Shown one piece after another: positions 14,940 to 20,018 of a DNA stretch of 63,382 nucleotides (positions are counted from its first letter, which is position 1; the number at the start of each line of letters is the position of its first letter). The position numbers and the translations under genes are program-made. Source of the stretch: Actinomycetota bacterium (GTDB lineage: Bacteria; Actinomycetota; CADDZG01; WHSQ01); the NCBI GenBank assembly GCA_013694625.1, contig JACDCD010000090.1, positions 1 to 63,382 on the forward strand, in the 5' to 3' direction. The notes under the pieces are model-generated. The model did no database searches. It was not told where the DNA came from and saw nothing but the letters and a program-made list of their open reading frames with translations.

Positions 14940-15127
14940 GGCCTCAGGCTCACATATCTATTGGAGCAGCACCTTCATTTCCAACCTTTGCGAGTATTTT
15001 GCCGGGGAATGGTGCGCCGTGACAGTGCTCTTGGTAGGTTACGTCTGTTAGATCCAGGGGAAGGCTTTCAGAGGTTGCTGCCGGGGTGCAGTTTCTCTTT
15101 GACTTTAGAAGGAAAGGTGGGAGTGGT

Positions 15128-15577
15128 ATGAGCGGAAGCTTGGCCAGTACCTCGGCATCCGGGGGAAGTGAACTCTTAACCGAGAAGGGCAAGACCTCCA
15201 TTGCCGACTCGGTCGTAACCAAGATTGCAGGTATGGCGGCCCGTGAGGTCTCAGGGGTGCACAACATGGGCGCCGGCGGGTCACGAGCGATCGGCGGATT
15301 TGTAGAGAGGCTGCCGATGGGTGGAAGCCAGCCGAGCCCCTCTCAGGGAGTCAAGGTCGAGGTCGGCGAGCGCCAGGCTGCCGTTGATGTCGACATCGTG
15401 ACCGAGTACGGCGTTTCGATCGTCGACGTCGCACAGGCGGTGCGGGACAACATCATCGACCGTGTCGAGTCCATGAGCGGCCTGCAGGTCACCGAGGTGA
15501 ACGTGACGGTAGACGACATTTACATCGAGCAGCCCGAAGAGCCGGCTCCTCCCCCTCCCGAGCCACGGGTCCAATAG
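15128..15577 (+). CDS. Asp23/Gls24-family envelope stress protein
   Basis: A 149-residue Asp23 domain protein: an N-terminal Ser/Gly-rich tail, then KTSIADSVVTKIAGMAAREVSG, a Gly-rich loop, VDVDIVTEYGVSIVDVAQAV and GLQVTEVNVTVDDIYI, ending in a Pro/Glu tail. Asp23 proteins polymerise under the membrane and are linked to cell-envelope stress. The start at ATG 15128 has AGGTGGGAG before it; an upstream in-frame ATG at 15086 lacks conservation. First of seven genes almost without gaps; the next starts 5 nt after its stop. Confidence 0.88.
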   Translation: MSGSLASTSASGGSELLTEKGKTSIADSVVTKIAGMAAREVSGVHNMGAGGSRAIGGFVERLPMGGSQPSPSQGVKVEVGERQAAVDVDIVTEYGVSIVDVAQAVRDNIIDRVESMSGLQVTEVNVTVDDIYIEQPEEPAPPPPEPRVQ

Positions 15578-15582
15578 CGAAG

Positions 15583-16269
15583 ATGCCCGTGGACGCCGAG
15601 GTCGTCGCCTCAGTGGTTGCGGCATGCCCGTCGGTCGCTCGTCTCTATGGCGGCCGCGCTGCCGAAGTGGCCACTTACCTGCCCGGAACGCGGGTCGAGG
15701 GCGTGCGGCTTGCCGAGGATGAGCTCGAGGTGCACGTAGTGGCGGCGTGGGACGTGCCTCTGCCGCAGGTTGCGGACGAGGTTCGCAGCGCTGCAGCCCC
15801 TGTGGGTGGCGGACTTCCGGTGGCCGTCTTCATCGACGACGTCGACATCCCGCCTGCGCTTCTCGGTGCCGACGAACCTCCGGAGGACACCCTGGCGGAC
15901 CCCATGGGGCTAACGGCCCCTGCGCCGCCGGGCGCGACCGTACCCGGAGAGGTCATCCCGCCCCCGCCGGTGCCTCCCCCGGCCGGAGACGCTCTGCCCG
16001 GCGACCCGATGGATCCGCTTGGCGCAGATCCGGTGGACTCTGAAATTCAGGCCGATCTGTTGCTGTCCCAACCGGAACCGGCCACACCTTCGGCCCAGGG
16101 AGATCCCGCAGCAGATGTGCTTCCAGGTGAGATCCTCCCGGATGACCCCGTGCTCGAGGACGAGGTGCCAGGCGACGTGATACCGGGCGAGCCGGTGACG
16201 CCGCCGACGGGCTCCGGGCATCGAAGGAAGAAGCGCACCTCCAAGAAGGGCGCCGGCGGCAGCAGGTGA
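15583..16269 (+). CDS. Asp23-operon protein with acidic/Pro-rich tail
   Basis: A 228-residue protein. Residues 1-95 form an Asp23-partner-like domain (ACPSVARLYGG, ATYLPGTRVEGVR, EVHVVAAWDVPLPQVADEVR) commonly seen beside actinobacterial Asp23 genes. Residues 96-205 are low-complexity, rich in Pro/Asp/Glu with repeated PGE(I/V)-P and PGD units (for example VPGEVIPPPP, LPGEILPDDP, VPGDVIPGEP). The C-terminus is strongly basic (RRKKRTSKKG). This charge layout suggests a flexible tether with a membrane- or nucleic-acid-binding tail. The stop overlaps the next GTG by 4 nt (GTGA). Confidence 0.65.
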   Translation: MPVDAEVVASVVAACPSVARLYGGRAAEVATYLPGTRVEGVRLAEDELEVHVVAAWDVPLPQVADEVRSAAAPVGGGLPVAVFIDDVDIPPALLGADEPPEDTLADPMGLTAPAPPGATVPGEVIPPPPVPPPAGDALPGDPMDPLGADPVDSEIQADLLLSQPEPATPSAQGDPAADVLPGEILPDDPVLEDEVPGDVIPGEPVTPPTGSGHRRKKRTSKKGAGGSR

Positions 16270-16553
16270 AAGTGCAATCAGCGCACTCACCTCTGGGGGT
16301 GGGTGCCGGTGCCAACCAGAGCGAGCTCAAGGACGCTTGGCGACGGTTCGCCATGGCGCATCATCCCGACAGGGGAGGGCGCCCCGATACGTTCAGAGCA
16401 GGCGCAGAGGAGTATCGCCGCCTGGCGGGAAAGCGGTCCCGTCTTTGCGGATCAGAGGTCGTCTTCCATCACAGACCGCGAGGCATGCAGGTACCCGTTG
16501 CGTGGTGCCGGGAGCGATGGAACGCCCGGAGACGGCCAAGAAGAGTGATCTGA
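16266..16553 (+). CDS. miniature J-domain-like protein
   Basis: A 95-residue frame starting at GTG in a GTGA overlap with the previous gene. Residues 9-55 match the J-domain core: PLGVGAGANQSELKDAW (end of helix I and helix II), AMAHHPDRGG with the HPD motif needed to stimulate Hsp70, then a helix III (DTFRAGAEEYRRLAG). The rest is basic and Cys-containing with no known fold; helix I is short. It may recruit DnaK to the envelope-stress complex, or be a decaying J protein. The conserved HPD and operon position favour a real gene; the C-terminal half is uncertain. Confidence 0.5.
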   Translation: MKVQSAHSPLGVGAGANQSELKDAWRRFAMAHHPDRGGRPDTFRAGAEEYRRLAGKRSRLCGSEVVFHHRPRGMQVPVAWCRERWNARRRPRRVI

Positions 16554-16571
16554 CGTGGGAGGAGGGAATCG

Positions 16572-16754
16572 ATGAAGCCGACGGTTGCCGGACTTTTTGT
16601 GGGTTTGATTCTGGGACTCGCTCTGGTACTGGTGGGTTTCGGCGAGATGCTCGTAGTGGCGCTCTTTGGCGCGGCGGGTTTCGTCGTCATGAAGGTGGTC
16701 GAGGGTGAGCTCGACGTGTCGCAGTACATCGGCGGCGGGTCAAGCCGGCGATGA
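16572..16754 (+). CDS. DUF2273 small membrane protein
   Basis: A 60-residue protein with two closely spaced hydrophobic helices (VAGLFVGLILGLALVLVGF and MLVVALFGAAGFVVMKVV) and a short polar tail, the pattern of DUF2273 proteins encoded beside Asp23 genes in Firmicutes and Actinomycetota. GGGAGGGAATCG precedes the ATG. Its stop overlaps the next ATG (ATGA). Probably helps anchor Asp23 at the membrane; the exact role is unknown. Confidence 0.8.
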   Translation: MKPTVAGLFVGLILGLALVLVGFGEMLVVALFGAAGFVVMKVVEGELDVSQYIGGGSSRR

Positions 16755-17689
16755 GCCGGCGCGGGGATTTCGACCCCGATGAGTTCGAGACCAAGGAAAT
16801 CACCGTAGCGGGAGATACCCCGGCCGAGGGTGATGACCCTGGCGTCTCGGACGCCGACTCGACCGAGGGTGATGACTCCGGCGTCTCGGACGACGACTCG
16901 ACCCAACTGGAGGAGATTCCGGTGGTTGAGGAGTCTTCGATCCGGGAGGATCCCTTGGGCGAGACCGCAGCGGCCGCATGGGCCGCCGGCGCGACTCCTC
17001 CACCCGACATGATCCCGGTTGATCAGGGCGGCGAGCCCAGGGCGGAAGCAAGCTCCGAGGCGCCCGAGGATGGCGGAGGGTTGCAGCCTTTCGTGCCCGA
17101 CGAGGATCCGCATGCCTCCGAACCGGCAGGGCCCCAGGGACCGTTTGCGCCGGTCGCCGAGACCCGCGCTTCGTCTCGGGAGACAAACGTGTGGGAGGAA
17201 GACGAGGTCCGCCTTCCTGGGACGGAAGACCCGCTGGTGACCCCCGGTCACGTCGAAGCGGCTCCAGAAAACTCCTCCGCCGAGACAACCGAAAATTCTG
17301 ACCCCTCAAGCGGTCTATTGATTACCGAGCGCGGGCACACGATCATCATGCCAAACGTGGTCGAGAAGATAGCCGGTCGCGCTGCGGCAGAGGTTGATGG
17401 CGTCGGAGGCGTTCAGTCGTCAGGGCTGGGTCGTTTTGCGGACCTGTTTTCGGGGAGCGACAAAAGAGAGACCCAGGCGCACGCCGAGGTGGACCGGGCC
17501 TCTACGGCCGTGGATCTTGTCGTCAGCGTGAGATACCCAGAGCCGGTTGGTGCGGTCGCAAACCGTGTCAGGCAGCACGTGGTCAAACGCCTCCATGAGT
17601 TGACGGGTCTGCAGGTCGGCGAGGTAAACGTCACCATTCCCGAGCTCGTGGTTCCGAGTGCGCCGCCCGCGCGGCCGAGAGTTATTTAG
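16751..17689 (+). CDS. second Asp23-family protein with long acidic N-terminal region
   Basis: A 312-residue protein. Residues 1-185 are disordered and highly acidic, with a near-repeat (EGDDPGVSDADST / EGDDSGVSDDDST). Residues 190-305 are an Asp23 domain: LLITERGHTIIMPNVVEKI, GRAAAEVDGVGGVQSSG, TAVDLVVSVRYPEPVGAVA and LTGLQVGEVNVTIPELVV. It may co-polymerise with the first Asp23 protein. ATG overlaps the DUF2273 stop by 4 nt. The acidic extension is larger than in typical Asp23 proteins. Confidence 0.82.
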   Translation: MSRRGDFDPDEFETKEITVAGDTPAEGDDPGVSDADSTEGDDSGVSDDDSTQLEEIPVVEESSIREDPLGETAAAAWAAGATPPPDMIPVDQGGEPRAEASSEAPEDGGGLQPFVPDEDPHASEPAGPQGPFAPVAETRASSRETNVWEEDEVRLPGTEDPLVTPGHVEAAPENSSAETTENSDPSSGLLITERGHTIIMPNVVEKIAGRAAAEVDGVGGVQSSGLGRFADLFSGSDKRETQAHAEVDRASTAVDLVVSVRYPEPVGAVANRVRQHVVKRLHELTGLQVGEVNVTIPELVVPSAPPARPRVI

Positions 17690-17699
17690 GAGGAGAAGG

Positions 17700-18233
17700 T
17701 TGCGCATCTTCGGACGAATAGTTGCCGCGCTGCTGGCCCTTGCCCTGCTAATTGGCGCGCTGCTCGTGGTTCTCGAGATACTGCTCGCAGGGCTGGGGCA
17801 ACCCCCGTTGGTCATCCCTTACACGACCTGGTACCAGGGGGCGATGCAGAATCCGTGGAGTAACCCCGCAATCCGGCTGTTGTGCATCGGCCTCATTGTG
17901 GCCGGCTTCGTCCTGCTCTATCTGTCTCTGGCCGCCCGGCGCCCGCTGGGATTCCCACTGAAGAGCTCGGATGACTCGGTTGATGCGCTCGTCAAACGCA
18001 AGAGCCTCGAGGGCTCACTGGGCAGAAGCGCCATGAGCGTCGAAGGCATTTCGGGGGCACGCGTGAGGATCAAGAAGGCGGGGACTGCGCAGGTGTCGGC
18101 GACGACGAACCGCCGCGTCGAAGGGGACCTCAAAGAACGGGTTCAGTCCACCGTTGCTTCGAGGCTTGCCTCCCTCGACCTTGCTTCGCCCACCGACGTG
18201 GTCGTCAACCTCAGGACCAGGGGGACCCAATGA
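17700..18233 (+). CDS. DUF6286-type membrane anchor of the Asp23 operon
   Basis: A 177-residue membrane protein with two helices (about residues 6-29 and 60-83) and a C-terminal cytoplasmic domain ending SPTDVVVNLRTRG, the pattern of the actinobacterial DUF6286 proteins next to Asp23. The start is TTG at 17700, supported by AGGAGG 6 nt upstream directly after the preceding stop. A longer frame from 17658 would overlap the previous gene by 30 nt. The C-terminal domain resembles the Asp23-like alpha/beta unit and probably contacts it. Confidence 0.72.
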   Translation: MRIFGRIVAALLALALLIGALLVVLEILLAGLGQPPLVIPYTTWYQGAMQNPWSNPAIRLLCIGLIVAGFVLLYLSLAARRPLGFPLKSSDDSVDALVKRKSLEGSLGRSAMSVEGISGARVRIKKAGTAQVSATTNRRVEGDLKERVQSTVASRLASLDLASPTDVVVNLRTRGTQ

Positions 18234-18814
18234 GCAGCACTCCGGACGCACTCAACCGCACGGTCTTCACACTGCTGGGAATCCTTTTGATCGCAGCGGG
18301 GGCGTACGGCGTGGCGCGAGGGTATGGCGCCTTCGGCAGCACCCAGGCTGAGGAACCGCTCCTCACAGGTGGGATCACCGGCTTCTTCGGCCGCATCGAC
18401 GACTGGTTCTGGCCTGTGGTGGCTCTGGTCGCGTTGATCCTTGCCTATCCTGCCTACAGGTGGCTCAAAGCGCAGCTGACGCCGACGTCGTCGGTGTCCG
18501 ATTTGGACCTGACTCGCGACCCCGCCGAGGGCAGGACGACATTGCGGGCGTCCGGCTTGACCTCCGCCCTGTCCGACGACATAGAGCGGGATCCGGCGGT
18601 GCACTCCGCCCACGTTCGCATGTTGGAGGACGGAGGCAGGCCAGAGGTCGACGTCGACCTCGACGTGTCCGAAGATGCCACTCTGGGTGAGGTGCGCCGT
18701 CGCATAGAGACCGAGGTCCTGGGGCGCTTCTCGTCGGCGCTGGAATCGGACTCCGTCAAGGGACACCTCAGGATCGGCTTGGTGCCGCGTCCTCAGGGAC
18801 GCACCCTCCAGTAA
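18230..18814 (+). CDS. AmaP-like alkaline-shock membrane anchor
   Basis: A 194-residue protein with two N-terminal membrane helices (about residues 11-31 and 56-79) separated by a short loop, then a soluble domain (DLTRDPAEGRTTLRASGLTS, PEVDVDLDVSEDATLGEVRR) as in AmaP-type Asp23 anchors. ATG overlaps the previous stop by 4 nt. Last gene of the operon; the structured repeat block and a terminator follow at once. The assignment rests on topology and context more than on specific motifs. Confidence 0.65.
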   Translation: MSSTPDALNRTVFTLLGILLIAAGAYGVARGYGAFGSTQAEEPLLTGGITGFFGRIDDWFWPVVALVALILAYPAYRWLKAQLTPTSSVSDLDLTRDPAEGRTTLRASGLTSALSDDIERDPAVHSAHVRMLEDGGRPEVDVDLDVSEDATLGEVRRRIETEVLGRFSSALESDSVKGHLRIGLVPRPQGRTLQ

Positions 18815-18815
18815 C

Positions 18816-18881
18816 CTGTTGCGGAAAACACGTCTCTTCAGGTCACGCAGGCTTTAAGTGACCTTCCAGAGACGTGTTTCC
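18816..18881. repeat. structured repeat module A (hairpin)
   Basis: Begins with repeat unit R1 (18816-18847). The arm GGAAAACACGTCTCT (from 18823) pairs with AGAGACGTGTTTCC (ending 18881) apart from one extra A; the inner arm AGGTCAC pairs with GTGACCT, closing the 11-nt loop GCAGGCTTTAA. Module B (19039-19103) has the same design with a T-A to G-C covariation in the inner stem. It lies immediately after the last gene of the Asp23 operon. Confidence 0.85.
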
Positions 18882-18942
18882 TCACAGTAGGGAAAAGGCC
18901 AACCCCCCAAACCCCAAACAACCTCCGGACCTCCTGGGGCAC

Positions 18943-19069
18943 GTGCTGCGGGAGCCCGTTTCCTCAGGCCACGCTGTTGCGGAAACACGTCTCTTCATCA
19001 GGTCACGTGCTGCGGGAGCCCGTCTCCCTCAGGGCACGCTGTTGCGGAAACACGTCTCTTCAGGGCACG
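18943..19069. repeat. tandem array of four about 31-nt units, two alternating variants
   Basis: Units R2 (18943-18973), R3 (18974-19007), R4 (19008-19038) and R5 (19039-19069) lie back to back without spacers. R2 and R4 carry TGCTGCGGGAGCCCGT; R3 and R5 (and R1 at 18816-18847) carry TGTTGCGGAAACACGT; all end in TCAGG(G/T/C)CACG. The alternation implies duplication of a two-unit block of about 64 nt. No spacers, so this is not CRISPR. Confidence 0.85.
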
Positions 19070-19103
19070 CAGGCTTTAAGTGCCCCTCCAGAGACGTCTT
19101 TCC
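19039..19103. repeat. structured repeat module B (hairpin)
   Basis: Unit R5 forms the left arm: GGAAACACGTCTCT (19046-19059) pairs with AGAGACGTCTTTCC (19090-19103), and GGGCAC (19063-19068) pairs with GTGCCC (19080-19085) around the same GCAGGCTTTAA loop as module A. The conserved loop with compensatory change in the stem suggests selection on RNA or cruciform structure. Confidence 0.85.
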
Positions 19104-19108
19104 TCACA

Positions 19109-19162
19109 TTAGGGGAAAATCAAGTCCCCCTAACCACCTTGAGTGGGGGGAAGACCCCCCAC
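19109..19162. repeat. two further short hairpins downstream of module B
   Basis: TTAGGGG (19109-19115) pairs with CCCCTAA (19127-19133); GTGGGGGG (19143-19150) pairs with CCCCCCAC (19155-19162) around an AAGA tetraloop. A degenerate version of the first (TAGGG, AAAA, then a C run) follows module A as well. Together with module B and the terminator they form a chain of four hairpins. Confidence 0.7.
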
Positions 19163-19188
19163 CACACACACCCGCACCTCACGGAAAG

Positions 19189-19221
19189 AAGAATCCGCCC
19201 GGTTTGGCCGGGCGGATTCTT
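19189..19221. terminator. strong bidirectional terminator hairpin
   Basis: AAGAATCCGCCCGG (19189-19202), loop TTTGG, then the perfect complement CCGGGCGGATTCTT (19208-19221): a 14-bp stem with A-rich and T-rich flanks. It separates the Asp23 operon and its repeats from the convergent gene ending at 19254. Confidence 0.85.
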
Positions 19222-19253: not shown

Positions 19254-20018
19254 TTAGCTTGCGCGGGTTGCGCCGTCGCCTGCGCTCTGGGCCTGGGTCT
19301 TACCCTCTTGCGCCCGCTCCTGGATCCGCTCCTGGGAGCCGGCTGCCTCCTCCTTTACATTGCTGCTCTCTTGCTCGGTGCGGTGGGCGGCACGCTGCCA
19401 GTATTCCTGCATCGTCGAGATGCCGCCGCCCCCGACAGCCACAACGGCGCTGCCTGCCACGATCGCAAGAATGGCATAGAAGAGGCCATTGACGATTTCC
19501 GGAGCGATCTCGAGCTGGTTCAGCGCAGCAAAGGCGGTTATCACGAGGATTGCAGCGCTAGCCACTATGGCCAATGTGCGTCCGTAGGACAGGCCCCCCA
19601 GTGACGCCTCGACGATCTCCTTGACCGCCGCCGCAATTGCAGCGCCGATCACGACAATCACGATGGCCACGAACAGCTTGGGCAGGTAGGCGATGACGCT
19701 CGCTGTCAGGGTGCTGATCGGGTTCGGGCCGAAAACGCCGAAAGCTAGTTGCAGCACGAACAGAAACAGGGCGTAGAAGACAATCCTGCCCAGGATTCCC
19801 GAAGCGTCGTATTGCGATTTGGCAAGAGCTTTGCCTACTCCGCCGCGTTCGACGGCCCTGTCGAAGCCGATGCGCTCGAGGACCTTGTCCAGCACCTTCG
19901 CCACCGCTTTGGCGACGAAATAGCCAATGACAAGGATCAGCAGGAATCCGACCAGCTTCGGCAGGAACGTCGCTACCGACGAAAACGCGTCGCCTAACCC
20001 ATCTGTGAACTCGTCCAT
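19254..20018 (-). CDS. membrane protein with TM_helix repeats (mechanosensitive-channel-related)
   Basis: A 254-residue protein. Two similar hydrophobic repeats, FLPKLVGFLLILVIGYFVAK (residues 18-37) and YLPKLFVAIVIVVIGAAIAA (about 109-128), are each followed by a charged amphipathic stretch: the conserved TM_helix repeat of small-conductance channel-related proteins. A third and fourth hydrophobic segment follow. The last 55 residues are a charged Glu/Gln/Lys-rich tail, probably cytoplasmic. No MscS beta-domain is present. AGGAGAAGCG precedes the ATG. A role in osmotic protection is only suggested by the family. Confidence 0.72.
   Translation of the reverse strand: MDEFTDGLGDAFSSVATFLPKLVGFLLILVIGYFVAKAVAKVLDKVLERIGFDRAVERGGVGKALAKSQYDASGILGRIVFYALFLFVLQLAFGVFGPNPISTLTASVIAYLPKLFVAIVIVVIGAAIAAAVKEIVEASLGGLSYGRTLAIVASAAILVITAFAALNQLEIAPEIVNGLFYAILAIVAGSAVVAVGGGGISTMQEYWQRAAHRTEQESSNVKEEAAGSQERIQERAQEGKTQAQSAGDGATRAS

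Follow-up and report, generated by a model that had tools for sequence, protein, structure and literature searches.

What is the structured block that lies directly behind an Asp23-family operon in the stretch of actinobacterial DNA analysed here (63,382 nt, contig C162, hereafter the window)? A sequence-only reading of the window had described this block (18816-19221) as self-similar with covarying hairpins and had offered three explanations, namely a 3' UTR regulatory RNA, an mRNA stabiliser for the envelope-stress operon and a REP-like element. We found that it belongs to a new, genus-restricted small dispersed palindromic repeat, which is not a dedicated Asp23 regulator.

The block consists of two full copies and leftover half-copies of a dispersed, self-complementary DNA repeat (Table 1). 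It folds far more strongly than shuffled sequences (z -6.5, 0 of 100 shuffles), and a 12-mer of the outer arm occurs five times in the window, compared to an expectation of 0.11. The two hairpin modules and their common 11-nt loop are present within a few bases of where the sequence-only reading had placed them. Copy 1, the core of which starts 7 nt past the TAA stop codon, is composed of the outer stem AAACACGTCTCT, the inner stem GGTCAC/GTGACC and the loop GCAGGCTTTAA; copy 2 has the same loop and the inner stem GGGCAC/GTGCCC, confirming the reported exchange of a T-A for a G-C pair. The outer stems of both modules are of subfamily A, and that of copy 2 has one mismatch. The likeness continues beyond the cores in an 88-nt direct repeat (D1, 18826-18913 and 19048-19135), and the first 29 nt of the tail behind copy 1 recur imperfectly 3' of copy 2. 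In between, we could trace the array of four alternating left-arm units (31-33 nt each), of which the fourth (19040-19070) is at the same time the left arm of copy 2. The two further hairpins and the 14-bp terminator announced by the same reading were found as well; the 14-bp stem is, however, a separate feature outside the repeat, located between convergent operons and with an equivalent stem in the corresponding locus of a sister species (L072).

Table 1 Features of the structured block and its surroundings in the window.
Feature	Position	Strand	Basis
Asp23-family operon, upstream of the structured block	15086-18814	+	Pfam matches, ORFs
Asp23 gene	15086-15577	+	PF03780, E 6e-30
DUF2273-like gene	16572-16754	+	PF10031, sub-threshold
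Asp23 gene	16751-17689	+	PF03780, E 7e-19
DUF6286 gene	17700-18233	+	PF19803
Final ORF of the operon	18230-18814	+	ORF list
Full hairpin copy 1 (module 1), subfamily A	18821-18884	+	R1 match, 78.3 bits
3' tail (CAGTAGGGAAAAGGCC...) and spacer	18885-18942	+	Direct repeat D1
Solitary left arm, subfamily B form (GTGCTGCGGGAGCCCGTTTCCTCAGGCCACGC)	18943-18974	+	31/32 nt identical to left arm of the C153 copy
Solitary left arm, subfamily A form	18975-19006	+	Direct repeat family D2; sequence
Solitary left arm, subfamily B form	19007-19039	+	Direct repeat family D3; sequence
Full hairpin copy 2 (module 2), subfamily A outer stem	19043-19106	+	R1 match, 80.8 bits
Small predicted hairpin TAGGGG...CCCCCTA in the 3' tail	19110-19132	+	MFE fold
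Predicted hairpin GTGGGGGG AAGA CCCCCCAC	19143-19162	+	MFE fold
14-bp perfect stem, terminator-like	19189-19221 (arms 19189-19202/19208-19221)	.	Inverted repeat I4
Convergent gene, mechanosensitive-channel TM-helix protein	19254-20018	-	PF05552, E 1.3e-24

The sequence-only reading had suggested a search for further copies, and these turned up both in the window's own genome and in the sister species. Employing a covariance model of 64 nt and 20 pairs (R1), we found 18 full copies, spread over 15 loci, in the own genome (G000, 2.7 Mb) and four copies in the sole other genome of the same genus (G007, the metagenome-assembled genome MGR_bin333, to which we assigned locus L072 on the basis of identical coordinates). 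Both counts are lower bounds, since one sister contig (C308, L086) stops inside a hairpin loop, behind an orthologous carbohydrate-kinase gene; annotators should be aware that draft assemblies break at such hairpins. Searches that used the block or the loop pattern as query likewise yielded further copies on many contigs of the own genome. In the order's 14 other genomes R1 detected no copy, nor did it in the remainder of the class, and across 297 genomes of the phylum it gave a single further match, weak and in another family (G106, E 6e-4), which we took as chance. A degenerate loop-plus-stem pattern had no match in GTDB r220 and IMG/VR; this pattern barred C at one inner-stem position and hence overlooks sister copies carrying GACCAC or GGCCAT, so that more weight goes to the model searches. 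Among the genomes searched, the repeat is thus confined to one actinobacterial genus. One of the sister copies has to be read with care: the flank of the copy on contig C76 (L068) matches the end of contig C53 of the own genome (L121, C53:1-512) at 100% identity over 512 nt, while other orthologs of the two species are mostly 79-94% alike, which suggests a cross-binned contig or a very recent transfer, so that this copy may be a cross-binned piece. Rfam gave no match in the window and none up to E 1 in seven loci, in line with the earlier claim of no named family; the repeat is undescribed in Rfam and has no match in the literature compared.

Each element spans about 65-75 nt plus a purine-rich tail, with the 64 nt of the model as its core. 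A full copy forms a two-part hairpin with an outer stem of 12-14 bp and an inner stem of 5-6 bp, separated by small asymmetric internal loops, the left one with 3 nt (TCA or TCC) and the right one with 4 nt. Common to the copies are the 11-nt terminal loop GCARGCTTTAA (GCARGCTTTAAG) and the CAC/GTG end of the inner stem, whereas the outer stems differ; the loop is nearly invariant, with most of its columns unchanged while the stems vary. The suggested check for covariation was run on an ungapped alignment of 17 copies, one of which lacks a loop base. Standard pairs make up 94% of the stem positions and 14 of the 20 pairs are altered on both sides, with a covariation score of 0.606 compared to 0.247 after shuffling (0 of 500 shuffles reached 0.606) and at most 0.235 in controls with slid partners. 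Since the copies represent about five stem classes, these figures reflect fewer independent events than alignment cells. Compensatory change between copies is therefore real, but does it indicate selection for structure, as the sequence-only reading had concluded? Arm-to-arm repair of imperfect palindromes is a known mutational process, and since either selection or such repair can keep stems paired, covariation between paralogs is no proof of an RNA function. The mismatches are mixed (13 G.T, 9 A.C and 9 others) and thus give no clear RNA-specific signature. Two hairpins could be compared as complete orthologous pairs with the sister species (C12/C311 and C153/C291, the only two available), and both stems contain uncompensated differences; selection for an RNA can consequently not be derived from the covariation. 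A dispersed DNA repeat, too, can display strong covariation around a conserved loop, a pattern normally taken as proof of a structured RNA.

It is the orthologous sites that decide between the RNA and the DNA-repeat reading. At the Asp23 operon, the sister gene ends with CTCCAGTAA and continues with GAGGGAAAGCTCC... straight into the common terminator: GAGGGAAAGC directly follows the stop codon, then comes the same terminator, and the hairpin is absent. This contradicts a regulator, be it an RNA or an attenuator, that serves the Asp23 envelope-stress operon alone, and an operon-specific role as offered among the options of the sequence-only reading is not supported. Two copies and an array directly 3' of the operon would suit such a regulator, but the syntenic sister operon does without hairpins and other copies stand behind rplI, pth, ligD, the gene of a PTS EIIA protein, that of a lytic transglycosylase and others, so that we give this explanation practically no credence.

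Placing the joined flanks of 12 own loci in the sister genome extended this picture. Besides the window locus, the sister plainly lacks the hairpin at C146, C7, C152, C157, C161 and C188, and it appears to be absent at C75 and C180 too, where the alignment is poorer; three hairpins are common to both species (C153/C291, C12/C311 and C159/C308). Hairpins thus come and go between sister species. Most hairpin-free sister sites retain a purine-rich motif resembling the tail of the repeat, which elsewhere was found in only 7 of 178 sampled 3' regions; some of the 'empty' sites may hence be hairpin deletions and not targets that were never occupied. The motif either belongs to the repeat or is a selective target. 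Its rarity also led us to reject the idea of a general purine-rich 3' UTR motif serving as insertion target. At the sister site of C188, sequences like both element ends surround CGGGCCC, and that of C146 keeps TGCTCC. Relics in the own genome, one with the right end only (C157:13429) and one hairpin with a deleted interior (C161:11031-11097), likewise suggest that hairpins get lost. In the aligned junctions, no target-site duplication is cleanly readable and only C162 has a possible CAGTA repeat; movement of the element is something we infer from these comparisons and did not see.

Relative to genes, the copies show a placement bias. Twelve of the 15 loci lie in sense orientation 3' of a gene, whereas intergenic positions and orientations drawn at random would give 41% (binomial P 0.002), and at five of the 15 the core starts no more than 20 nt from the stop codon, compared to 4% expected (P 3e-4). 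These statistics rest on gene calls from a home-made caller, with the gene at C153, cut by the contig start, read by eye, and on a 402-kb sample of stretches picked partly for holding copies. With left-arm arrays included in the element, nine blocks start about 10 nt or less from a stop codon; since this edge was set by eye after the sequences had been seen, the figure carries no weight as a test. No copy is located inside a predicted gene, with C180b abutting or slightly overlapping the end of a convergent gene call. Of the three other loci, C53 and C146 are antisense 3' and C188 is flanked by divergent genes. The neighbouring genes code for peptidyl-tRNA hydrolase (pth), a lytic transglycosylase, an ATP-dependent DNA ligase (LigD), ribosomal protein L9 (rplI), an FtsX permease, MaoC, PTS EIIA, TauE, RuvB and a carbohydrate kinase; they have no function in common, which ruled out a regulon. 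As a side observation, of the 12 host genes at sense loci 11 stop with TAG or TAA, while TGA accounts for 55% of the stop codons in the sample; the sister genes at C152 and C180, which have no hairpin, stop with TGA.

The sense 3' bias and the closeness to stop codons, together with the strong fold, the conserved loop and the covarying stems, are what one would expect of a functional 3' UTR RNA acting as terminator, as barrier to 3'-5' exonucleases or as brake on translation termination and kept by selection on RNA structure. Clustered hairpins are reported to be able to terminate transcription, and they resemble the present ones in lying close behind stop codons (PMC8355165); they are defined by transcript ends, whereas the element described here is a repeat family with a conserved loop. 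Purging of insertions elsewhere would produce the same placement bias, three loci are antisense or divergent, and the sister lacks the hairpin at most of the orthologous genes. The uncompensated changes in the shared copies and the mismatches beyond G.T also speak against selection on an RNA, and we consider this reading unlikely. An intrinsic terminator within the modules was rejected, as no U-run follows and the stem is succeeded by CCTCACAGTAGGG. A terminator scan found none at the hairpins, but was limited to loops of 3-8 nt, which excludes the 11-nt loop, and it missed the stem at 19189-19221 too.

The REP-like reading fared better: with 18 copies at 15 loci, the element is extragenic, palindromic, mostly 3' of genes and differs in presence between sister species. 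Measured against the general definition of REPs as short, extragenic, palindromic sequences in multiple copies with a shared consensus (PMC12306157), it lies between genes, is palindromic and occurs in several copies with a common consensus, but its 64-nt core exceeds the length of, for example, 14-40 nt in E. coli (PMC12306157), and 18 copies is low for a REP family. It shares with the GTAG and CGTC superfamilies that short extragenic palindromes occur several times per genome, mostly 3' of genes, that families are lineage-restricted and vary in their stems, and that dimers and clusters exist (PMC3733652). Could it then be a REP proper that owes its mobility to a RAYT/TnpA-REP transposase? 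Four copies (C152, C23, C159 and C161) carry GTAG ahead of the hairpin foot, although there it belongs to a GAG-TAG stop-codon context, and the aligned flanks hold no consistent GTAG or CGTC tag. In contrast to CGTC-class REPs with stems of 8-9 bp and loops of 4-5 nt (PMC3733652), the repeat has a longer two-part stem and a conserved 11-nt loop, and it further differs from both superfamilies in its low copy number and left-arm-only arrays. Moreover, the Y1 transposase domain (PF01797, Y1_Tnp) is absent in G000 (98.2% complete) and in G007 (94%), while positive controls were detected, and an IS200/IS605/RAYT origin was rejected on these grounds. A REP proper is therefore very unlikely. MITEs and small mobile repeats such as ERIC, RU-1 and RU-2 are described as non-autonomous, intergenic, palindromic and polymorphic in presence, and resemble the repeat in these respects (PMC2759123, PMC2229807); here, C162 and no fewer than six further loci are occupied in one species and hairpin-free in the other. 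Compared to these elements, the present repeat is shorter, and neither a parental IS with matching ends nor a target-site duplication was recognised. When the block was searched against the whole genome, a draft assembly, the matches were hairpin copies or short fragments; a longer element with the same ends did not emerge. The repeat resembles a REP or MITE in its working and is filed in neither named superfamily.

Half-elements and arrays give hints on how the sequence multiplies. Left arms are duplicated in the window and at C7, C12, C161 and C188, and whole copies are arranged in tandem at C75, C180 and C162, which fits replication slippage at strong hairpins. The left arms of subfamily B in the window stand beside full hairpins of subfamily A, hence sequence was probably copied between loci. 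At C75, C224 and C180 (L049, L051 and L053), the interior appears by eye to be turned round with respect to a 3' flank (CTCCTCGCAA..CAAGAGACCGG) that the copy at C23 has as well. At several loci, the left-arm arrays stop just inside the loop (CACG or CACGC). Together with a loop that is more conserved than the stems, such ends would suit a replication or recombination site with its recognition sequence in the loop, comparable to rolling-circle origins. The junctions vary, though, with those at C7 and C188 reaching into the loop and that at C161 taking in the whole inner hairpin; the copies are dispersed on the chromosome and no associated replication or recombinase gene was noted, which makes such a site extremely improbable. 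We regard as distinctly unlikely a more specific scenario, in which the conserved loop, in place of an end tag, would be recognised by some enzyme that acts on single strands and differs from Y1/RAYT. The element would then spread partly as half-elements, with left arms that are severed within the loop and become inserted, time and again and between subfamilies, beside the 5' foot of existing copies just behind stop codons.

The explanation in which we have good confidence is that of a genus-restricted, non-autonomous palindromic repeat of REP/MITE-like character that undergoes gain and loss, with the block as a cluster of its copies. Such an element would be mobile or expanding. The conserved loop and internal-loop bases, combined with stems that vary yet remain paired, point towards recognition of a folded single strand, presumably by something that reads these bases in the hairpin form. 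Arm-to-arm correction (quasipalindrome repair), selection on recognition or both could keep the stems palindromic, and slippage at the strong hairpins could both generate left-arm arrays and tandem copies and delete hairpins. Effects on host operons, such as termination, translation end or mRNA decay, may occur and would be secondary and incidental. As no Y1 transposase was found in this lineage, its presence/absence pairs make movement or maintenance of repeats independent of RAYT testable.

We also came across a second family of dispersed palindromes, CCGAGTGGGTG-N-CACCCACTCGG, which is nearly always 47 nt long, with fixed ends and a variable centre. It occurs seven times in the own genome (C38:16994-17040, C70:24904-24950, C161:7580-7626 and four more; L105, L108, L114, L125, L128, L130), once in the sister and 16 times in a genome of another genus of the family (G006), compared to no occurrence in 13 others.
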